Positions 1 through 10,335 of a stretch of DNA of 10,335 bases are shown here, piece by piece. Position 1 is the first letter of the stretch. Each line of letters starts with the position of its first letter. The position numbers and the translations under genes were made by a program. The stretch comes from Candidatus Nanohalarchaeota archaeon. GTDB taxonomy: Archaea; Nanohalarchaeota; Nanosalinia; Nanosalinales; JAFCCC01. The notes beneath the pieces were generated by a model. The model was not told the DNA's origin, did not search any database, and saw only the letters and a program-made list of their open reading frames with translations. The stretch spans positions 1 through 10,335 of the forward strand of contig JAFCCC010000015.1 of assembly GCA_017610385.1 (NCBI GenBank), in the 5' to 3' direction.

Positions 1-2477
1 GCACAGGAACTGTTTTAAAAGAATTGTACTGTGTGGCTCCGTCCTCGGATAATGGATATTTGGTTAAAACAGAAGAACATGCTTGTGCAAATGGTTGTTC
101 TAATGGTGCTTGTAAAGGGACAGAACCGCAAAAGTGGACTTGTGTAGATTCTGATAATGGAAAGAACTATTGGAAGAATGGGAATGTAAAAATATTGAAA
201 CCTGATGGAACGTTAGACAGTACGAAAGAGGATGTTTGTAGTTCTGATGGGGTAACTATGAAAGAATACTATTGTAAATCCGTTAGCTCAGACGATGGAT
301 CTAATTTAAGGGCAATACAAGTTCATCAATGTGCAAATGGTTGTTCTAATGGTGCTTGTAAAGGGACAGAACCACAAAAGTGGACTTGTACTGAGACAGA
401 TAATGGAAAGGACTACAATGTAAAAGGGACCACAAAGCAGTTTAAACCAGATGGAACTCAAACGTATAGTAATTCAGATTGGTGCACAGGAACTTGTGCA
501 AATGGTTGTTCTAATGGTGCTTGTATTGGAAATGAACCTCAACAATGTGTTGATGAAGATGGTGATGGATATGGTAAAGCAGGTACAACGCAATATTGTG
601 CAAATAAATATGTTGATTGTGATGACACTAATTTCAATATAAGACCATTTTTAGTTGATATTTGTGATACCTTGGATAATGATTGTGACTGTTTGAATAA
701 TCCAAAAGACACAAACGGAGATGGGGTATTTTGTGGCCCTGGCGATGAAAATGTTGACGAAGATTGTTCAGGAAGATGTGGAGACGGAAAAGTAGAAGAT
801 ACAAGAGAAGAATGTGATAAAACAAACTTAAACGGCAAAACGTGTGCAACTTTTGGGTGTACGGGAGGAACTCTGAAGTGCACAAATTATTGTAAATTTG
901 ATACTAGTTCTTGCACGGGTTGCGCTGGTGGAGATAAGTGTAATAACGGCGTAAAAGATGCTGGAGAAGAATGTGACGGAAATAAATTTGGGTATATGAC
1001 TTGTCAATTATATGGCTGTACTGGAGGAAGTTTAACTTGTACAGATACTTGTACAATAGATACGTCTAGCTGTACTGGCTGTGGTGGCGGCTATTGTGGA
1101 GATGGTATTAAAAATAATAAAGAAGAATGTGAAGGATCAGACTTTGGAAGTTTAACTTGTGAGACTTATGGCTGTACTGGAGGAAGTTTAACTTGCTCTA
1201 ATTGTTTTGCAGATAGTAGCACATGTACTGGATGTCCTACACAGTGTACTGATGAGGATAGGGACGGATATGGAGTATATGGGCTTTATGATTGCGATAA
1301 TTCTGGAATAGATTGTAATGATACAAATGCTAGTATAAATCCGAGTGCCACAGAAATTTGTGGAGATGGCATAGATAATGATTGTGTCGATGGAGATCAA
1401 GAATGTGCTGATGATACAACAGAATGTCCTGCAAATGCAATAGAATGTACTACAAAAGAACAAGTAAAAGCATGCACAGATGATTATAAAGAGAATAAAG
1501 TTACAAAAGAACATGTAAGTACCTGTTTTAATTCGGTAATTAAAGAGAACAGTTGTCGTGCAGCCTATATTTTTGCGGCAGGGCCAATTACTTCATTTGC
1601 TAATGCAATAACTAAAGATGATGTGATGGGTGTGGGAGAGTATTTTTTAGCCAGAGCAAATTATCCGTGGCCACAGAGATATCTTTTACCTGGATTGAGA
1701 ATGCAGTGGATTGCGATATCCAATTTCTACTTTGGGGGCTGTGATATTTCAAAAATTAAAAATAATATTGCACCAAAAATTAAGGCAAATATGCCGTCTA
1801 CAGCAAGTTCAAATTCTGTTTTACAGTTTGACGCAGCAGAAAGTTCAGATGAAGATGGAAAAATTTCAGAATATAAATGGACTTTTGGGGATGGTGCATC
1901 AGGAGAAGGTAGTTCACCAATACACGTTTATGAAAATGCTGGAGAATATATTGTAACTACTGCAATAAAAGATGACGTTGGGGATGGAGTGATACTTGCA
2001 AAAGATATTACCATAGATGGGTCTGCATCAGAAACTGAGCAAGAATATACCTGTTATAATATTAAATCAGGATGGAATGCAATTTATATTAGTTCATCTA
2101 AAAATATACCTGTAAATGCGATTGGGAATGGTTGCGAAAACGCTGTAATTTATGGATTAGATGATAATGGCAGATTATCCGCTGCAGTGGATAATTTAAA
2201 AAGTGGAAAAGGATATTTTATTAGAACAGATAACAATTGCAAATTAACTTCTGAAATTAAAAAAGTAGATGATTCGCAAATTCAATTAAATAAAAATTGG
2301 AATCTAGTAGGAACAACACAAGATTTGTTAGTTTCTAAAATCAAGGAAAGTTGTGGTAGTCCAGTGTCTGTAATGGGAATAAGTGCAGAACACACATTAT
2401 ACACAGAATCAACGAAATTAGAAGCTGGAAAGGGATATTTAGTGAGAGTTCCAGAAACTTGCACAGTTTCTAGATAA
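1..2477 (+). CDS. Cys-rich mosaic surface protein with MopE-like and PKD domains (5' end missing)
   Basis: The frame is open to the left edge (first full codon at 3), so the true start and any signal peptide lie outside; the TTG at 24 is unlikely to be the real start. The visible 824 residues end at TAA 2475-2477. Modules in nucleotide positions: repeated units ending in CANGCSNGAC (84-542); MopE-like motif 546-692 (VDEDGDGYG, DCDDTN, DNDCD); a DTNGDGV-type acidic loop about 708-760; three tandem Cys-rich repeats resembling the Myxococcus disulfide-rich type (777-1235, GDG...EEC...GCTGG.L.C); second MopE-like motif 1245-1410 (DEDRDGYG, DCNDTNASINP, DGIDNDC); an unrecognised segment 1425-1742; PKD domain about 1790-2020 with WTFGDG; two C-terminal GWN...GKGY units (2052-2250, 2287-2470). 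No C-terminal membrane helix is seen. The many cysteines suggest an extracellular disulfide-stabilised or metal-binding protein. Function is unknown; adhesion, envelope or metal capture are all possible. Confidence 0.9.
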   Translation, partial: TGTVLKELYCVAPSSDNGYLVKTEEHACANGCSNGACKGTEPQKWTCVDSDNGKNYWKNGNVKILKPDGTLDSTKEDVCSSDGVTMKEYYCKSVSSDDGSNLRAIQVHQCANGCSNGACKGTEPQKWTCTETDNGKDYNVKGTTKQFKPDGTQTYSNSDWCTGTCANGCSNGACIGNEPQQCVDEDGDGYGKAGTTQYCANKYVDCDDTNFNIRPFLVDICDTLDNDCDCLNNPKDTNGDGVFCGPGDENVDEDCSGRCGDGKVEDTREECDKTNLNGKTCATFGCTGGTLKCTNYCKFDTSSCTGCAGGDKCNNGVKDAGEECDGNKFGYMTCQLYGCTGGSLTCTDTCTIDTSSCTGCGGGYCGDGIKNNKEECEGSDFGSLTCETYGCTGGSLTCSNCFADSSTCTGCPTQCTDEDRDGYGVYGLYDCDNSGIDCNDTNASINPSATEICGDGIDNDCVDGDQECADDTTECPANAIECTTKEQVKACTDDYKENKVTKEHVSTCFNSVIKENSCRAAYIFAAGPITSFANAITKDDVMGVGEYFLARANYPWPQRYLLPGLRMQWIAISNFYFGGCDISKIKNNIAPKIKANMPSTASSNSVLQFDAAESSDEDGKISEYKWTFGDGASGEGSSPIHVYENAGEYIVTTAIKDDVGDGVILAKDITIDGSASETEQEYTCYNIKSGWNAIYISSSKNIPVNAIGNGCENAVIYGLDDNGRLSAAVDNLKSGKGYFIRTDNNCKLTSEIKKVDDSQIQLNKNWNLVGTTQDLLVSKIKESCGSPVSVMGISAEHTLYTESTKLEAGKGYLVRVPETCTVSR
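84..542 (+). repeat. Tandem CANGCSNGAC-containing coding repeats
   Basis: Three copies of an identical 30-nt core encoding CANGCSNGAC lie at 84-113, 330-359 and 495-524. Copies 1 and 2 extend to 84-143 and 330-389 with a single mismatch in 60 nt (G at 128 against A at 374, silent in a Pro codon), so the duplication looks recent or homogenised. Protein units run from one WTC to the next: 135-380 (82 residues) and 381-542 (54 residues), with a partial unit before position 135. Each full unit carries a DNGK..Y segment, a KPDGT segment and the Cys core. I do not recognise a named family. Confidence 0.85.
777..1235 (+). repeat. Three tandem Cys-rich disulfide-type repeats (coding)
   Basis: Units begin at Cys codons 777, 939 and 1095, giving lengths of 54, 52 and 47 residues. 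Each carries an (N/D)G.K/I....EEC start, a conserved GCTGG(T/S)L(K/T)C centre and an S(S/T)CTGC end. A 29-nt stretch is identical between units two and three (1011-1039 and 1167-1195), so they duplicated recently or convert one another. The pattern resembles the Myxococcus-type cysteine-rich repeats found in bacterial and archaeal surface proteins; the third unit is the shortest and has lost residues near its second Cys cluster. Confidence 0.8.
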
Positions 2478-2510: not shown

Positions 2511-3563
2511 ATGACAAAAAAAGGTAAAGTTTTTTCTAATTCCTTGTTACTTTTTTCTCTGTCAGCAATTTTAGTTCTTGTTTTAATTGGAGTGATTTTT
2601 TCAATTTTAGCACAATCAAATCAAGTTGTTGTTTATGTTTCTCATGATCAAGATTATTCAGAACCAATTTTGCTTGATTTTCAAAAAGAAACAGGCATAA
2701 AAATTAAAGCGGTTTATGATACAGAAAGCACTAAAACCACTGGTTTGGTAAATAGACTAATTGAAGAAAAAAACAATCCTCAAGCAGATGTTTTTTGGAA
2801 TAATGAAGTTTCAAGAACCTTAGTTTTGAAAAATAAAGATATTTTAGAACCATATTGTTCTATTAATGCAGAAGGTATTGACAAGAAATATAAAGACAAG
2901 GAGTGTTACTGGACGGGTTTTGCGGCACGAGCAAGGATTTTATTAATTAATACAGATCTGGTTTCTTTAAAAGATGCACCAAAAACTCTAGAAGAATTAA
3001 CTGATAAAAAATGGCAAAATAAAATTACCTTAGCGAATCCCTTGTTTGGTACAACTGCGTCGCATATGAGCGCTTTATTTGTTGTGTTGGGTAAGGAAAA
3101 GGCAGAAACTTTCTTTAAAAAACTTAAAGAAAATGGACTCATAATTTCGGAAAGTAATGGTCGAACGAGGGATGCTGTAGCTAGCGGAACAATTGAAATT
3201 GGTTTTACAGACACTGATGATGCAAATGATGCGGTAGTTGATGGCAAAGCAGTTTCAGTAATTTATCCAGATCAAGGAAAAGATCAAATTGGCACATTAA
3301 TTATTCCAAACTCAGTGATGTTAATTAAGGGCGGAAAAAACAAAGAAAACGCAAAAATACTGATTGATTATTTATTAAGTCCGGAAACTGAACGAAAGTT
3401 AGCTTTTAGCAAAGCGGCTCAAATGCCGTTACATATTGGCGTGAAAAAGCCAAAAAATGTTCCAGATGTTTCAAAAATTAAAACAATGAATGTGACTTGG
3501 CAAGAAGTAACTGAAATGCTTCCTCTTTCTCAAGAATTCTTAATGAATTTATTTATATCGTAG
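2511..3563 (+). CDS. Ferric-iron-type ABC transporter substrate-binding protein
   Basis: A 350-residue extracytoplasmic binding protein of the AfuA/FbpA-like family (COG1840 type), predicted to capture a small ligand, nominally Fe3+, and deliver it to the permease encoded next. Residues about 10-34 form a hydrophobic N-terminal helix without a lipobox Cys, so it is probably a membrane anchor. Family-like segments are VVVYVSHDQDYSEP (39-52), TKTTGLVNRLIEEKNNPQADVFWNNE spanning 74-99, YWTGFAARARIL (133-144), ANPLFGTTASH (175-185), GFTDTDDAND (231-240) and SAQMPL-like AAQMPL near 312. The His45 and Glu99 regions align with typical iron-site segments, but no adjacent Tyr-Tyr pair is visible, so substrate is uncertain (iron, phosphonate or another small ligand). 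Two cysteines (116, 132) could form a disulfide. The ATG at 2511 is supported by the TATA spacing and the start of the hydrophobic anchor. It is the first gene of the importer operon. Confidence 0.9.
   Translation: MTKKGKVFSNSLLLFSLSAILVLVLIGVIFSILAQSNQVVVYVSHDQDYSEPILLDFQKETGIKIKAVYDTESTKTTGLVNRLIEEKNNPQADVFWNNEVSRTLVLKNKDILEPYCSINAEGIDKKYKDKECYWTGFAARARILLINTDLVSLKDAPKTLEELTDKKWQNKITLANPLFGTTASHMSALFVVLGKEKAETFFKKLKENGLIISESNGRTRDAVASGTIEIGFTDTDDANDAVVDGKAVSVIYPDQGKDQIGTLIIPNSVMLIKGGKNKENAKILIDYLLSPETERKLAFSKAAQMPLHIGVKKPKNVPDVSKIKTMNVTWQEVTEMLPLSQEFLMNLFIS
3552..3558 (+). promoter_or_regulatory. Possible internal TATA box before the permease gene
   Basis: TTTATAT is centred 24 nt upstream of the permease ATG at 3579 and lies within the last codons of the preceding gene. 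No Shine-Dalgarno sequence precedes that ATG. It could give the permease-ATPase pair its own near-leaderless transcript, but TATA-like words are frequent in DNA this AT-rich. Confidence 0.35.
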
Positions 3564-3578
3564 AAATGAAATTAATTT

Positions 3579-5168
3579 ATGTTCAAAACAATTAAAAAGA
3601 ATCCTGGCAAGTTTTTTGGTTTTTCTATATTATTAATTGGTTTTTTACTTGCTATTGTACCTTTATTTTACACTCTAATTACGTCTTATGTTCAATCGCA
3701 ATATTTTACCTTTTTCAATCCGAAACAACTTAGAATTTATTGGTCATTGTTTTCACAATCAAGAATCCTTTTGATTTTTGGGCGAACAATGCTGTTGGGG
3801 GTGGGTACAGCCACAATAAGTATTTTAATTGGGGGCTCTTTCGCATTTGTTTTTGAAAGAGTGCAATTTAAATTTGCAAAAATTCTAAGGGGGTTGTGCC
3901 TTGTACCAATATTAATTCCACCATACATTATAACTATTTCGTGGATGCAAATGTTTGGCATTACAGGATATATATCAAAATTGCCAATCTACAATCTATT
4001 TTCGACTATGAGCATAATGGGGCTCTGTTTATTTCCAATAGTATTTTTAATTGTTTCAGCAGGATTAAAAAGAATAAGTTCAAGGGTAGAAGAATCTGCT
4101 AGACTTGTTTCTGGAAAGTTCAGGACTTTTTGGAAAATTACCCTGCCTTTACTTATGCCGTATTTACTTACAGCAAGCTTTTTTGTTTTTGTACTTTCAA
4201 TTTCAGAATTTGGAGTACCTATGTTGTTGCATCAAAATGTATTTGTTTCAGAGATATTTTATCGGTTCGGAGCGTTTTTTGATCATGAAGCTGCAATTAG
4301 TATGACCCTTCCATTACTAATCCTTGTTTTATTTTTAATAGTTATACAATCTAAAATTCTTGGAAAAAAGCCAGTTCAAACAATTAACTCAAATTTTACT
4401 CAAAAGAAAATAAAACCTTCAAAAAAAGCAGAATTCAGCATTTACTTTTTTATACTTTTAATTCTCAGTTTTTCGTTTTTGATTCCAATTGCATCATTAT
4501 TTTATCTTGTAAATTGGGCGGGTTTTACATATGCAATAAGAACTTCACTTACTGCTATCTGGAATAGTTTGTGGATATCAATTGGTGGAGCTAGTTTACT
4601 CACTTTCTTTGGATTTTTCGCAGCGTATTTTTTGAGTAGTATTTCTGGAATTAAAAAAAGGGTTTTAGATATTTTAATAATGATTCCCATTATAATTCCA
4701 AGTTCTGTTGTAGGAATTTCTTTGATTCGGACATGGAATAACCCATCAACATCATGGATTTATGGTTCCATATTAATTTTGATATTAGTATATTTAACAA
4801 GATTCTTGCCTTATGCAATAAAATTGCAGGAATCAAATTTTACACAATTAACTAAAAATTTAGAAGAAAGTGCTCACTTAACAGGTACAAGCTTTTTTAA
4901 AATTATTAAGAAAATTTTAATTCCATTATTATTCCCGGGAATTATCGCGACCTGGGCAATTTCATTTATTTTAATTATAAGAGAATTGGGAGCTAGCATT
5001 TTAGTTTATCCGCCAGGTTTTGAAACTTTACCAATTAGAATATTTAATTTAGTGCATTATAATGCACCAGAAAGTATTGCAGCGCTTTGTTTACTTTTAA
5101 TTGTAATTGTTTTAATACCTCTGGCATTTATTTATATCTTATATAAAAATCAAACGAGGAAAAAATGA
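3579..5168 (+). CDS. ABC importer permease, fused two-domain FbpB type
   Basis: A 529-residue membrane protein that would form the transport channel of the importer. It has about twelve predicted membrane helices in two halves (roughly 13-36, 66-91, 107-126, 143-161, 190-212, 239-257; then 287-311, 331-354, 371-392, 398-414, 444-468, 501-523). Each half has an EAA-type cytoplasmic loop that docks on the ATPase: EESARLVSGK...ITLP at 171-190 and EESAHLTGTS...ILIP at 429-449. This fused architecture and length are usual for ferric-iron-type (FbpB/AfuB) permeases, in contrast to importers with two separate permeases. A Lys-rich linker (about 262-283) joins the halves. The gene starts 15 nt after the binding-protein gene; its stop overlaps the ATPase start by 4 nt (ATGA), so the two are surely co-transcribed. 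An alternative ATG at 3566 is out of frame. Confidence 0.92.
   Translation: MFKTIKKNPGKFFGFSILLIGFLLAIVPLFYTLITSYVQSQYFTFFNPKQLRIYWSLFSQSRILLIFGRTMLLGVGTATISILIGGSFAFVFERVQFKFAKILRGLCLVPILIPPYIITISWMQMFGITGYISKLPIYNLFSTMSIMGLCLFPIVFLIVSAGLKRISSRVEESARLVSGKFRTFWKITLPLLMPYLLTASFFVFVLSISEFGVPMLLHQNVFVSEIFYRFGAFFDHEAAISMTLPLLILVLFLIVIQSKILGKKPVQTINSNFTQKKIKPSKKAEFSIYFFILLILSFSFLIPIASLFYLVNWAGFTYAIRTSLTAIWNSLWISIGGASLLTFFGFFAAYFLSSISGIKKRVLDILIMIPIIIPSSVVGISLIRTWNNPSTSWIYGSILILILVYLTRFLPYAIKLQESNFTQLTKNLEESAHLTGTSFFKIIKKILIPLLFPGIIATWAISFILIIRELGASILVYPPGFETLPIRIFNLVHYNAPESIAALCLLLIVIVLIPLAFIYILYKNQTRKK
5156..5160 (+). promoter_or_regulatory. Shine-Dalgarno-like GAGGA of the ATPase gene
   Basis: GAGGA ends 4 nt before the ATG at 5165, inside the permease coding end. 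It supports this start for the operon-internal gene, in contrast to the neighbouring promoter-proximal genes, which lack such a motif. Confidence 0.5.
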
Positions 5169-5878
5169 AATCATCTTACTTGGAAATTCGAAATTTGAAA
5201 AAATATTTTGAAAAAATTAAGGCCGTTGATAATGTTTCTTTTAGCATAAATCAAGAGCAAATAGTGGGCTTATTAGGCTCTTCTGGTTGTGGAAAAACAA
5301 CATTATTAAGAGTAATTGCGGGGTTAGACTTACCAGATTCAGGAACAGTAAAATTAAATGGGCGAATTCTTGAAAGTGAAAAAGTGTCTTTAAGTTGCAA
5401 CAAACGAGGGGTGGGCTTAGTTTTTCAAGATTTGGCACTTTGGCCACATATGACTGTAGAACAACACATTCAATTTGTTTTGGATTCGAGAAAAACCAAA
5501 GAGAACTTTAAAAAATATCTTAAATTGGTAAATTTAGAAGAATGTTCTAATAAATTCCCAGAAGAACTTTCTGGAGGACAACAACAGAGAGTTGCACTTG
5601 CAAGAACATTGGCGCAAGATTTAAATCTGTTGTTATTAGATGAACCTTTAGCGAATTTGGATATAATTCTTAAAAAAGAAATTAAAAAGAAACTATTGAA
5701 TTTAAGGAAGAAATTAAAATTAACAATAATTTATGTTACACACGATATCTCAGAATTAGTTGGTTTGGCGGATAAAATTATAATTATGAATAATGGTAAA
5801 GTAATACAACAAGGCTCATTAAATTCTATTAAAAATAATCCTAAAAATAACTTAGTGAGAAATTTAATTTCTATTTAA
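5165..5878 (+). CDS. ABC importer ATPase, FbpC-like, short form
   Basis: A 237-residue cytoplasmic nucleotide-binding subunit that would drive the importer by ATP hydrolysis. All core motifs are intact: A-loop Tyr14, Walker A GSSGCGKTT (38-46), Q-loop Gln88 in VFQDL, signature LSGGQQQ (135-141), Walker B LLLLDE with catalytic Glu160, D-loop ANLD (163-166) and H-loop His193 in VTHD. Ferric-iron and CUT1-type ATPases are commonly about 340-370 residues because of a C-terminal TOBE regulatory domain; this one stops just after the core, so that domain is absent. The stop is clean and no frameshift is seen. It overlaps the permease by 4 nt and is preceded by GAGGA. The 3' end overlaps the convergent minus-strand gene by 15 bp. 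Substrate assignment rests on the neighbouring genes, not on this protein. Confidence 0.93.
   Translation: MKSSYLEIRNLKKYFEKIKAVDNVSFSINQEQIVGLLGSSGCGKTTLLRVIAGLDLPDSGTVKLNGRILESEKVSLSCNKRGVGLVFQDLALWPHMTVEQHIQFVLDSRKTKENFKKYLKLVNLEECSNKFPEELSGGQQQRVALARTLAQDLNLLLLDEPLANLDIILKKEIKKKLLNLRKKLKLTIIYVTHDISELVGLADKIIIMNNGKVIQQGSLNSIKNNPKNNLVRNLISI
5831..5850 (-). terminator. Possible T-rich terminator of the minus-strand gene
   Basis: Just past the minus-strand stop (5864-5866), the minus strand reads two T5 runs (complement of AAAAA 5831-5835 and 5843-5847) about 12 nt apart. Archaeal termination often uses T-tracts without a hairpin. The tracts lie inside the end of the ATPase gene. Weak evidence, since A/T runs are common here. 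Confidence 0.3.
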
Positions 5879-7732
5879 TTTTTTAATTTCTAAAATTAAA
5901 AATACAATAATCGAGATTCCGATAACTGAAATTAAAATCCAAAGAAAAATTCTTGAAGAGTGGTTTGGTGTGTAATTTTCTGTAATCTTGGTAGGATTTT
6001 TCAAAATTGAAATTGATTTTTGTAATTGATCTATTTCTTGACCAGAATCTCGAACTTGTAAAATTACATTATAACTTCCAGATTTTGGATAACTATATTG
6101 GACACTTTTAGAGGGACTCCAGTCGGTTTCATAGTTTCCATCGCCATCAAAATCCCAGCGAGATTCTAAAATCGCTAAATCCTCTCTATCATAAGAATTA
6201 GAAGTAAAATAAGCTTTATCATTGTTATAAATTTTTTTAGGAAAAACAGAAAAATTTGCAACTGGGTTTTGATTTTTAGAATATATTCCAATTTCTTTTG
6301 AGGTATTAGAAATTTCTCCGTCAGAATCTTTAACTTCTAACTGAATTAAATACTTCCCAGAATCTGAAAAAGATTGTGTAATATTTTTTGTAGTTGTCCA
6401 TGTAGAAAAGGGATTTGAATTAAACCTCCAGCGATATTTTAAATTAGATTTATCTTCTAAATCAGAACTATTTGAAAAGTCAAAAATGATTTCAGAATCA
6501 ATAAATCCATAATCTTTAGATTTTATGTGTGCAATTGGTTTGGTATTTGGTGTTTCATCTAAAACATATAAACCTTTCAAAGTTCCAAGAATTATTTCTA
6601 CTTTATTATCTGAATCAATATCTGCAAAGGTGGGACACACAGATAATTGACTAGGTAATTTGTATTTCCATTCTAATTCAGAATAACTGTAAGAAAAAAT
6701 TTCCTTGGAATTTAAGGGTGTATAAAAAATCTCTATTTCATTATCGGAATCAATATCTGCGGCAGTTAAACAATTTTTATTACTTGTTGTTACATTAAAT
6801 TGTTTTAAAATCTCTTGAGTTGCAGAATCTATAATATTAATTTTTGAATTTTGAATATATACAATCTGAGGTTCCGGTGAATTTTTGAAATTTGCAACTA
6901 ATATTGAATTCTCTGAAAATGCTTGAAAATCAGAGGACTTTGATTCTTGAAAAATTGAATTTCCGTTGGCATTTAAAATATGCAAATTAGAATAAATGTC
7001 TTGAAAAATAAGTTTTTGACTGTAAATTAATTGCTGGGGATTCATTGAATATTCTTTTTTGAACTTTGTAACTCCGGTTTCTGCTTCAAGAACAATAATA
7101 GATTCAAATCCTGTAAAAATTTCAGGTAAAGAATCAGAATCTATGTCGTCAATTGCGAAGAATTTAGATTCTACATCTGGTCTTTCCCAAAGAACAGCGC
7201 CAGTAGAATTTAATAAAAGAGGGTGATTAATTGAAATAAGTATTTCATTGGAATTATTTCCAGAGGCATCAAAAATGACTGGTTGAGATGTAACAAAGTC
7301 GTCTAAATAAACCTTCCATTCCAAAGTTCCTTCTGGTGAAATAGAATAAATTTGGCGGCCTGCAGCCACAATAATGTGTTGTTGGTCGAAAGAATCAGTT
7401 AAAATGGCTGGTGCATTTTCTATATTGGCCCCCAAAGAAATAGACCATATTTTATTTCCATTTGAATTAAATAAATATAGTGTGTTTTCTGATCCAAATA
7501 GCAATTTTGGCTCTTTTGACATAAGATTAACAACTAAAATTGGTGTAGTAACTTCTCTTTCGAAAATGGAATGCCATTTTAAACTAGGTATGTTTATATT
7601 TCCAGTAATTGAAACAATTCGAGAATTAGCATTATTTAAATTTGAAGATGGCCAATCATCTGCACTATTTAAACTAACAAAAAGAGTTAGAAGAATTAAA
7701 GGTATTATAAAAACTTGTGAAATTCTAGTCAT
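5864..7732 (-). CDS. Secreted beta-propeller/PKD protein with C-terminal membrane anchor
   Basis: A 622-residue product starting at the ATG 7732-7730. This start is preferred over the upstream ATG at 7780 because it begins directly with a signal peptide (1-24, hydrophobic IIPLILLTLFVSLNSA) and has a TATA box 30 nt upstream. Residues about 40-395 look like a beta-propeller of FG-GAP/PQQ-like blades: recurring (L/I)Y.(F/I)(N/S).(N/E)G...W segments and three acidic loops of the DIDSDN.(V/I)EI type (195-205, 326-335, 371-380), which in FG-GAP proteins bind Ca2+. Two PKD domains follow (399-484; 490-577, with DFDGDG), then a membrane helix (595-614) and a short basic tail. At least eight N-x-S/T sequons suggest N-glycosylation outside the cell. 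Ligand and role are unknown; adhesion or envelope structure is plausible. Confidence 0.88.
   Translation of the reverse strand: MTRISQVFIIPLILLTLFVSLNSADDWPSSNLNNANSRIVSITGNINIPSLKWHSIFEREVTTPILVVNLMSKEPKLLFGSENTLYLFNSNGNKIWSISLGANIENAPAILTDSFDQQHIIVAAGRQIYSISPEGTLEWKVYLDDFVTSQPVIFDASGNNSNEILISINHPLLLNSTGAVLWERPDVESKFFAIDDIDSDSLPEIFTGFESIIVLEAETGVTKFKKEYSMNPQQLIYSQKLIFQDIYSNLHILNANGNSIFQESKSSDFQAFSENSILVANFKNSPEPQIVYIQNSKINIIDSATQEILKQFNVTTSNKNCLTAADIDSDNEIEIFYTPLNSKEIFSYSYSELEWKYKLPSQLSVCPTFADIDSDNKVEIILGTLKGLYVLDETPNTKPIAHIKSKDYGFIDSEIIFDFSNSSDLEDKSNLKYRWRFNSNPFSTWTTTKNITQSFSDSGKYLIQLEVKDSDGEISNTSKEIGIYSKNQNPVANFSVFPKKIYNNDKAYFTSNSYDREDLAILESRWDFDGDGNYETDWSPSKSVQYSYPKSGSYNVILQVRDSGQEIDQLQKSISILKNPTKITENYTPNHSSRIFLWILISVIGISIIVFLILEIKKLNRN
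5879..5884 (+). terminator. Possible T-tract terminator of the importer operon
   Basis: Six T residues follow the ATPase TAA (5876-5878) immediately, a position where archaeal transcription often ends. No hairpin was seen. The tract lies inside the convergent minus-strand gene. Confidence 0.35.
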
Positions 7733-7758
7733 ACTTAGTTTATTATGTATTTGCGGAG

Positions 7759-7766
7759 AATATAAA
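7759..7766 (-). promoter_or_regulatory. TATA box of the beta-propeller/PKD gene
   Basis: The minus strand reads TTTATATT, centred about 30 nt upstream of the ATG at 7732. This implies a transcript beginning a few nucleotides before the start codon, and favours that ATG over the in-frame ATG at 7780, which would lie upstream of the box. Confidence 0.55.
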
Positions 7767-7799
7767 CATAAATTTATCAAACACGGGGATTGTTAAACA

Positions 7800-7832: not shown

Positions 7833-10335
7833 ATGTTTCGAAAAGGACAATTAAGTACATACTTAAAACCAGTAACGGTTCTTTTAATGACTGTTCTATT
7901 AGTTGTTGTGCTTTTTGTGGCTTTACAATTTGGCGCTAATATAAAAACCACAAGAGCTTCTTATGAACTACAGTCTCAGGCTTCAAAGATTAAAGATGAC
8001 ATAGTACGTTGTCTTTCTGTAAATACTAATTACACTAAATCTGAAATAGTAATTAACAGATCCAAATTGAGTGATCTTCAAGATACTTCAAATTATATGG
8101 AACCTGATTGTGCTGAAGATTTTCAGTATGGCTGGAACGCCTCAGTAAAATTAGAGTATCTTCCGGGTGTTGCAAGAATTATATCAGAAGAAGATGCAAG
8201 TATTATTTTAATATTGGATATTTCTGGTTCTATGGCGTGGACAGGAGATAGTGGACAACCCAAAATTGAAGAAGTAAAGCAAGGCGCTATTAATTTTATA
8301 GATCAAGTTTCTGGAGGGGTTAAAGTAGGAATTATTACATTTAATGGAGCCACAAATCTTGTACAATCTCTTACCACAGATAAAACACTATTAAAACAAA
8401 AAATAAGAACGATTTCTAATCCGAATGGAGGAACGTGTTTGGGTTGTGGAATCACACGAGCTTTAGATGAGCTTAAAAGAAATGGAAAAGGAAACCTTTA
8501 CGGCATTTTATTAACTGATGGTTGCCCTTGCCCAGATGTTACTTATCCTGCGGCCATTCAAAAAGCACAGCAAATGGGTGTAAAAATACATACAATCGGT
8601 TTTAGTTTAAAGGATACTATAAGTGGCAGATGTACTTGTCGGGTAACAGACGCGATAACGCATTTGGATCGTATTGCATCCGAAACTGGGGGCAAAAGGT
8701 TTTTAGCCAAAGATTTAACAACTTTAAAAGAAGTTTACCAAGAAATTTCTACACAAATAGAAAAAGGATATGCACAATATGGACTATCAGAAACTACGTG
8801 TTCTCTGGAGCCTCTTATGGGTTACCGAGGAAAAATAGATCTTGCATTTATCATAGATCGTTCAGACAGCATGAATAAACCCGTTATTTGTGATTATATT
8901 GAAAATATTGTTTCGGGACTTCGAGAAGTAGGAATTAAAGTAAATTATACAGTGTATGGTATGCCAGATCAACCAATGACTACTCCAGACGCTGCAATTA
9001 AATATTTTGCTGTTAGAAGTATGTGGGATCCTTCTTGTATGGACAAGAAAGCAAACTGGACAGATTCGTTTAGCTTTCATTTATGGAGAGATGGTAAACC
9101 AGAAGGATGGGGTCCCTCAACGTCGTGGGTACTTGATGATTATGACTGGCAAGAGGACTCTGAAAAAGTGATTGTGATTTTCGGAGACCAGGATCCTACA
9201 GGCGGCTGTGATGGAGACTATTATGAAAGTCATTCTGCTACAAGTTTTTCTACTAACAGCAATTTCAAAGTCGAAAATGTGGCGAAATTATGCACTAATT
9301 GTATGGACCGGCATGGAGACACATATCCCTTAGAATATTGGAATCCTTGGAAAGGTTATCCTGGAAAAGATAATGCCACTCAAATACCCATGGATAGCGA
9401 AGTGGAAATTATGAGCAATATTAGTTCAAAGGCAAATGAAAAAGGGGTGGAGATAACATTTCTTAGAGCTCTGGAATATCAACTAAAAAAGCAATATAAA
9501 TTCGGTTCTCCGACCGTGAATGATGCAATAGAAGCAATGGAAAATGTTTCTTCGGAGACTGGTGGTTCTGTATACTTTTATACTATGTGGGATTCATTCC
9601 TATCAGATTTAAAGGAAAAGTTCTTTTATTACCAATTAAGAGATAGTGTGGAAACCTGCCCAAATGTTCTTTACACGTTTGGGGAAAAGGAAGGATCTTT
9701 TGGAAGATCTTTAGATGAGGAAACAACACTTTCTTTTCCAGTATCTGTACTTCAAAATAAAAATCTTATTGTGCCCGGAACACTAACAGTACAAGTAAGG
9801 GATGGGGATTTAGAAAGGATTGTAAGTAAAATTAATAAAGTGTATTCTATTGGCAATTCTAAACAAGAAAGTTATTCTTCTGTTTTAGAATTAAATTTAG
9901 ATAATAGTATTGAAATCAAAGATGCTGTTTTGAAAAAACCGAAAAAAGTAGAATATACTCTTTCAGGTGGGCTCTCAGAAACTGACCCACTTATTGTAGA
10001 TGAAGATTTGCGTGTTGGTCTGTATGGAGAAGATATATTTCAAGATCAAGATGGCCTTCCAACCACTGCCGCTAATGCGAATTATACTGGAGAACCAATT
10101 AAATTTTACGCACGTCAGAATGCTGCTTTACAAATCTTAGCAATGAATTATGAAAGACCTACCTTAGAAATTAGTCCTTTATATCTTCATTGTTGTGGTG
10201 ATCAAACGCAGAAAATTGGAGATGGTGTTTTTGAAGATGCAGATATAGATTTAGATGCATACAATAATGCTTCAATTGGATATACATTTTTTTACTCATT
10301 TCCAACCATTAAAATTGGAGAAACAGAAGAATATT
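7833..10335 (+). CDS. Membrane-anchored double vWA-domain protein (3' end missing)
   Basis: From the ATG at 7833 the frame stays open for 834 codons to the right edge; no stop is present, so the end lies outside. The N-terminus MFRKGQLSTY followed by a hydrophobic helix (about 13-33) fits a class III prepilin/archaellin-type signal with possible cleavage after Gly5, or a plain membrane anchor. vWA domain 1 (about 121-310) has a full MIDAS metal site: Asp129, Ser131 and Ser133 (DISGS), Thr201 (GGT) and Asp229 (LTDG). It also has three Cys pairs at 202/205, 231/233 and 267/269. vWA domain 2 (about 336-600) has DRSDS at 342-346 and a strand-end Asp452 (VIVIFGDQD), with likely Thr430; it carries long insertions (about 376-440, 455-520) with Cys353, 402, 459, 487 and 490. 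Residues 610-834 are beta-rich with no recognised family. About ten N-x-S/T sequons suggest an outside location. vWA proteins bind ligands through the MIDAS metal; the ligand here is unknown. Confidence 0.9.
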   Translation, partial: MFRKGQLSTYLKPVTVLLMTVLLVVVLFVALQFGANIKTTRASYELQSQASKIKDDIVRCLSVNTNYTKSEIVINRSKLSDLQDTSNYMEPDCAEDFQYGWNASVKLEYLPGVARIISEEDASIILILDISGSMAWTGDSGQPKIEEVKQGAINFIDQVSGGVKVGIITFNGATNLVQSLTTDKTLLKQKIRTISNPNGGTCLGCGITRALDELKRNGKGNLYGILLTDGCPCPDVTYPAAIQKAQQMGVKIHTIGFSLKDTISGRCTCRVTDAITHLDRIASETGGKRFLAKDLTTLKEVYQEISTQIEKGYAQYGLSETTCSLEPLMGYRGKIDLAFIIDRSDSMNKPVICDYIENIVSGLREVGIKVNYTVYGMPDQPMTTPDAAIKYFAVRSMWDPSCMDKKANWTDSFSFHLWRDGKPEGWGPSTSWVLDDYDWQEDSEKVIVIFGDQDPTGGCDGDYYESHSATSFSTNSNFKVENVAKLCTNCMDRHGDTYPLEYWNPWKGYPGKDNATQIPMDSEVEIMSNISSKANEKGVEITFLRALEYQLKKQYKFGSPTVNDAIEAMENVSSETGGSVYFYTMWDSFLSDLKEKFFYYQLRDSVETCPNVLYTFGEKEGSFGRSLDEETTLSFPVSVLQNKNLIVPGTLTVQVRDGDLERIVSKINKVYSIGNSKQESYSSVLELNLDNSIEIKDAVLKKPKKVEYTLSGGLSETDPLIVDEDLRVGLYGEDIFQDQDGLPTTAANANYTGEPIKFYARQNAALQILAMNYERPTLEISPLYLHCCGDQTQKIGDGVFEDADIDLDAYNNASIGYTFFYSFPTIKIGETEEY

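Follow-up and report, generated by a model that had tools for sequence, protein, structure and literature searches.

Paired cysteines at the MIDAS loops of a vWA domain in a putative nanohalarchaeal surface adhesin, and a recurrent TCxxC[GA] signature in archaeal vWA proteins

Gene organization of the window

The window analysed here is a 10,335-nt stretch of DNA from a Candidatus Nanohalarchaeota archaeon (contig JAFCCC010000015.1, assembly GCA_017610385.1) and corresponds to the entire length of that contig, referred to as C4. At its left end, a CDS at 3–2477 (+) encodes a protein that looks secreted, is very rich in cysteine, and has a PKD domain as well as MopE-type metal-binding motifs (PF11617). 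The region 2511–5878 (+) was recognized by eye as an Fe(III)-type ABC importer comprising a binding protein, a double permease, and an ATPase. A divergently oriented gene for a beta-propeller/PKD surface protein (5864–7780, −) adjoins the vWA gene described below. A similar-looking divergent beta-propeller/PKD gene is also located alongside the vWA gene of locus L004, and the two genes may form a syntenic pair.

The vWA gene occupies the right end of the window as an open frame of 834 amino acids (7833–10334, +) that remains open at the contig end. Window positions 10272–10335 are identical to nucleotides 1–64 of contig C2 (L033, G000:C2), and the overlap lies in frame inside the vWA gene. Contigs C4 and C2 are probably adjacent, and because this 64-nt overlap is identical and in frame, the full host protein probably continues into C2 and reaches ~883 amino acids. 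The full protein contains 19 cysteines; as this number is odd, at least one of them must be unpaired or engaged intermolecularly.

Downstream of the vWA gene, C2 contains an operon-like run of genes for proteins with pilin-like N-termini. A papain-family (C1, PF00112) protease and a C25-family protease are encoded at L033 1967–3568 and 4495–6591, respectively, and both have cysteine-rich segments and an N-terminal membrane-type helix in front. Judging from the left-hand CDS and the C2 run, the proteins encoded around the vWA gene are extracytoplasmic and cysteine-rich.

The following features were assigned to the host gene:

7833–10335, +, host gene for the vWA surface protein (frame cut by the contig end; exact in-frame 64-nt overlap with C2)
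7842–7943, +, N-terminal RKGQLST and hydrophobic stretch, residues 4–37 (inspected by eye)
8187–8765, +, vWA domain 1 (vWA1), residues 119–311 (PF00092, AlphaFold2 model, and fold alignment)
8832–9620, +, vWA-like domain 2, approximately residues 334–596, with DRSDS at 342–346 (translation)
9654–10335, +, C-terminal part of the scaffold, starting at residue 608 (in L006, joined to the N-terminal segment without a break)

By eye, the RKGQLST motif and the hydrophobic stretch resemble a class III/pilin-like signal or anchor; no Pfam match to a pilin signal peptide was obtained in residues 1–60. In the vWA-like domain 2, residues 525–583 gave a weak, sub-threshold match to PF25106. A vWA-less relative, L006 (279 amino acids), matches host residues 2–109 and 608–670 in a single frame. 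Because L006 joins these two segments free of vWA sequence, the tandem vWA domains may have been inserted into a pre-existing scaffold, or else lost from L006. The scaffold is thus found vWA-free, the module-on-scaffold arrangement of a PilB-like pilin, and the host protein resembles a secreted, pilin-like scaffold into which two vWA domains are inserted. From its analogy to PilB (PMC8179133) and PilY1 (PMC9210963), we infer that it may be a modular surface adhesin, with an adhesive role and a location on a pilus.

The first vWA domain and its six cysteines

Residues 124–303 match PF00092 with an E-value of 1.4e-20 (74.7 bits against a cut-off of 23.8), and all five MIDAS residues (D129, S131, S133, T201, and D229) are intact in vWA1. 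Three cysteine pairs accompany them:

8217–8231, +, MIDAS DxSxS motif, D129/S131/S133 (translation)
8433–8435, +, MIDAS Thr201 (translation and alignment)
8436–8447, +, cysteine pair 1, C202-x-x-C205, in the T-loop at the start of the helix after Thr201 (translation and AlphaFold2)
8517–8519, +, MIDAS Asp229 (translation and alignment)
8523–8531, +, cysteine pair 2, C231-x-C233, in the D-loop (translation and AlphaFold2)
8631–8639, +, cysteine pair 3, C267-x-C269, in the b5-loop, which follows the next strand (translation and AlphaFold2)

The codons for cysteines 202, 205, 231, 233, 267, and 269 start at 8436, 8445, 8523, 8529, 8631, and 8637, respectively, and the three pairs have the contexts TCLGCG, DGCPC, and GRCTC. 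All six cysteines and the MIDAS residues are present in the translation of 7833–10334 at the positions given in a first-pass annotation of this DNA; the right boundary of the region, which was placed at 8640, has to be moved to 8639, where the final cysteine codon ends. The cysteines are more tightly clustered than the composition of the protein would predict: in a post hoc test with 20,000 shuffled versions, 58 had three C-x(1,2)-C motifs inside 70 amino acids.

An AlphaFold2 model of vWA1 was built from an alignment of 50 vWA homologues, with TCxxC-containing relatives left out (model residue + 111 = protein residue), and had a mean pLDDT of 88.9 and a pTM of 0.86. Its alignment by VIA-align gave Z values up to 25 and a Rossmann-like fold. 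In the predicted secondary structure, C202 and C205 lie at the N-terminus of helix 203–217, C231 and C233 in the loop after the strand ending at 228, just before D229, and C267 and C269 in loop 258–270 after strand 250–257, where the pLDDT is ~67. In the vWA topology these three loops are all located on the MIDAS edge, the latter two following neighbouring strands. The predicted secondary structure and this topology support the earlier proposal that all three pairs would lie on MIDAS-edge loops.

Distribution of the three pairs among relatives

When 297 archaeal genomes were searched, just L004 and L005/L019 were found as full-length relatives beyond the window. L004 is the best orthologue (40% identity over residues 3–465), and L005/L019 share 28–35% identity. 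In L004 the MIDAS is intact, GGTSIQDG replaces TCLGCG, the D-loop (DGCPSK) has one cysteine, and the b5-loop has one, giving a T-loop + D-loop + b5-loop count of 0 + 1 + 1. L005 has none of the six cysteines (0 + 0 + 0). The D-loop and b5-loop counts match each other across the orthologues (2 + 2 in the window, 1 + 1 in L004, and 0 + 0 in L005).

The 2 + 2 + 2 pattern was found in the window alone among 216 full vWA domains, and was absent from the domains added by further archaeal searches (156 genomes; matches mostly ~320-aa frames). Full-protein scans of genome contigs and of viral contigs returned no relatives. A T-loop pair without a D-loop cysteine occurs in two domains (L016 and L121), and in two others (L160 and L168) a D-loop pair represents the sole loop cysteines. 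Conservation of the three pairs together, as the first-pass annotation had proposed to examine in a homologue alignment, was therefore not observed, and the trio is not conserved as one unit. Since the pairs vary independently, which that annotation had itself named as counting against a single cluster, we reject the reading of all six cysteines as one conserved metal cluster.

The TCxxC[GA] signature in archaeal vWA proteins

vWA domains were surveyed in 394 archaeal genomes and in genome contigs (mostly bacterial). T-C-x-x-C-[GA] immediately after the MIDAS Thr was found in 47 of 290 unique vWA domains, a proportion that does not represent a population frequency because domains of this kind were used to build the survey profile. 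With TCLGCG after the Thr and a D-loop cysteine in DGCPC, vWA1 belongs to this TCxxC[GA] group, a grouping made here, and two further members (L151 and L203) are paralogues encoded in the genome of the window. A D-loop cysteine accompanies the motif in 23 of 25 full TCxxC domains, as compared with 7 of 172 domains without TCxxC (Fisher, 9e-22, a nominal value because rows are related). A four-cysteine set with two residues each in the T-loop and D-loop recurs in L028, L150, L151, and L129. The TCxxC domains are found in long, often cysteine-rich, surface-type frames.

These data reveal a new pattern, in which TCxxC[GA] recurs in archaeal surface-type vWA proteins, nearly always with cysteines in the next MIDAS loop. 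The first-pass annotation knew of no named vWA family with the window's arrangement. This holds as far as searched: a Pfam family specific to TCxxC vWA domains was not encountered, those examined match plain PF00092, and no description of a CxxC beside the MIDAS in archaea was found in the open-licence literature. However, the first pair is not unique to the window, as TCxxC[GA] occurs in many archaeal vWA proteins.

Similarity to known vWA proteins

The best fold match of vWA1 is Mfa5, located at the tip of the type V pili of Porphyromonas gingivalis (6tnj; Z 25.2, rmsd 2.3, 190 residues), and many other vWA chains have similar Z values. Mfa5 belongs to another pilus type, and the TCxxC motif is absent from the alignment. 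PilB, a minor pilin of Streptococcus sanguinis (7b7p, PMC8179133), likewise combines a pilin scaffold with a vWA whose MIDAS is intact, and vWA1 aligns to it with Z 23.0 (rmsd 3.1, 201 residues). In PilB, however, one vWA lies at the C-terminal end of the pilin module, whereas the host protein has two inserted vWA domains, and the class III signal is recognized by profile in PilB but by eye only in the host protein. Disulfides are not mentioned in the text on PilB (PMC8179133).

PilY1, located at the tip of the Pseudomonas aeruginosa type IV pilus (PMC9210963), resembles the host protein in having an extracytoplasmic, intact-MIDAS vWA with unusually many cysteines, of which C147 and C152 are functionally important, providing a bacterial precedent. 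The C-terminal domain of PilY1 is unmatched in the host protein, and a PilC/PilY1 beta-propeller gave no Pfam match in the 834 amino acids scanned; the likeness is one of analogy and implies neither matching cysteine positions nor orthology. The N1 vWA of collagen VI alpha-1 (9han), a eukaryotic matrix protein, has a cysteine at Thr+4 (the position of C205) and a D-loop cysteine, but neither CxxC nor the third pair; a statement on bonding between those two cysteines was not found in the paper on this domain. The secreted vWA of CLCA1 (6pyo) likewise has a cysteine near the MIDAS Thr (GGTSICSG), but this is a single residue at Thr+3, and there is no D-loop CxC.

Proposed role of the cysteine pairs

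We consider it probable that the six cysteines of vWA1 form disulfides, in whichever pairing, that hold the MIDAS loops in place in an archaeal adhesin. Of 43 domains containing two or more cysteines, 40 have an even number (binomial P, 1.5e-9, with relatives non-independent), as do all 24 full domains that carry a TCxxC pair, in which totals range from 4 to 24. These even numbers, together with the separate loss and gain of pairs and the matching D-loop and b5-loop counts of the orthologues, fit local disulfides and disfavour a six-cysteine metal centre. Of the three options put forward in the first-pass annotation, namely a second metal centre, a disulfide cap, and a redox switch, the cap is the best supported.

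On this model, the host protein would be a modular adhesin, extracytoplasmic and probably pilin-like, on the surface of an archaeon with a small genome, and its two vWA domains would be inserted into a scaffold that also occurs vWA-free. A C202–C205 disulfide would be situated at the helix start behind MIDAS Thr201, and two staples would join C231/C233 to C267/C269. The staples would hold the T-loop, the D-loop, and the next loop around the Mg/Mn ion, so that the ligand-binding face would be fixed in a force-bearing adhesin. The genome encodes a DsbA-like membrane-anchored protein with a CDAC motif; VKOR was looked for and not found. Locus L208 (G000:C13, 93225–93527, −) corresponds to a membrane-anchored protein of 596 amino acids; its DsbA-like thioredoxin modules have CPYG in place of CPxC, and there is a single CDAC.

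We infer both the oxidation state of the six cysteines and their pairing; the arrangement given above is the most likely one, although less certain than disulfides as such. The exact pairing is uncertain because a disulfide within C-x-C is strained, and the co-occurrence of TCxxC with D-loop cysteines also fits bonds between the T-loop and D-loop. Such cross-links (C202/C205 with C231/C233), combined with a C267–C269 bond, are the main, though less likely, alternative, which is a variant of the disulfide model and not exclusive of it. The cysteines of collagen VI alpha-1 N1 at corresponding loops agree with this pairing, but L004 has D-loop and b5-loop cysteines and no T-loop cysteine, L016 and L121 carry a T-loop pair and no D-loop cysteine, and a disulfide within C-x-C, here in an exposed loop, would again be strained.

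It is unlikely that the TCxxC pair and D-loop cysteines form a second structural site, for Zn or Fe, next to the MIDAS, with the third pair as an extra. The resemblance of CxxCG to a zinc-knuckle turn, the strong co-occurrence described above, and the recurrent four-cysteine set are consistent with such a site, and Zn(Cys)4 also gives an even cysteine number, yet it leaves the two-cysteine sets at the same loops (1 + 1 in L004; a D-loop pair only in L160 and L168) unaccounted for. T-loop pairs without a D-loop cysteine, a D-loop cysteine spacing ranging from one to many residues, totals of up to 24, and the extracytoplasmic setting with many secreted cysteine-rich neighbours also argue against it. 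The second metal centre of the first-pass annotation is accordingly disfavoured: the trio is not co-conserved, L004 retains an intact MIDAS with 1 + 1 cysteines, and cysteine numbers are even whatever their total.

A redox switch, in which the CxxC after Thr201 would be reversibly oxidized and would gate the binding of metal or ligand, possibly when force is applied, seems improbable. The CxxC adjoins the metal ligand Thr201 at a helix N-terminus, the placement of thioredoxin-like redox motifs, mutation of Cys152 in the PilY1 vWA alters both surface sensing and the response to force (PMC9210963), and the DsbA-like protein is encoded in the genome; however, the pair is missing from L004, which retains the MIDAS, and the fold of vWA1 is not thioredoxin-like. 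That the CxxC behind the MIDAS Thr is a thioredoxin-like redox gate common in archaeal surface vWAs, to which the window protein adds two stapled loops, is quite improbable.

Archaea with small genomes are considered dependent on contact with other cells, and their means of attachment are poorly known. A cysteine signature at the vWA metal site could serve as a marker for candidate adhesins in these organisms, and it yields a testable claim, namely that disulfides lock the binding face or switch it. Taken by itself, the window protein would differ modestly from known vWA adhesins of the pilus type, and the more useful outcome is the wider TCxxC[GA] signature.

L016 919–3492 encodes a vWA protein with SSCIGCG beside the MIDAS and Ser at the MIDAS Thr position; by eye, the N-terminus of this protein seems to contain a C-type-lectin-like domain.
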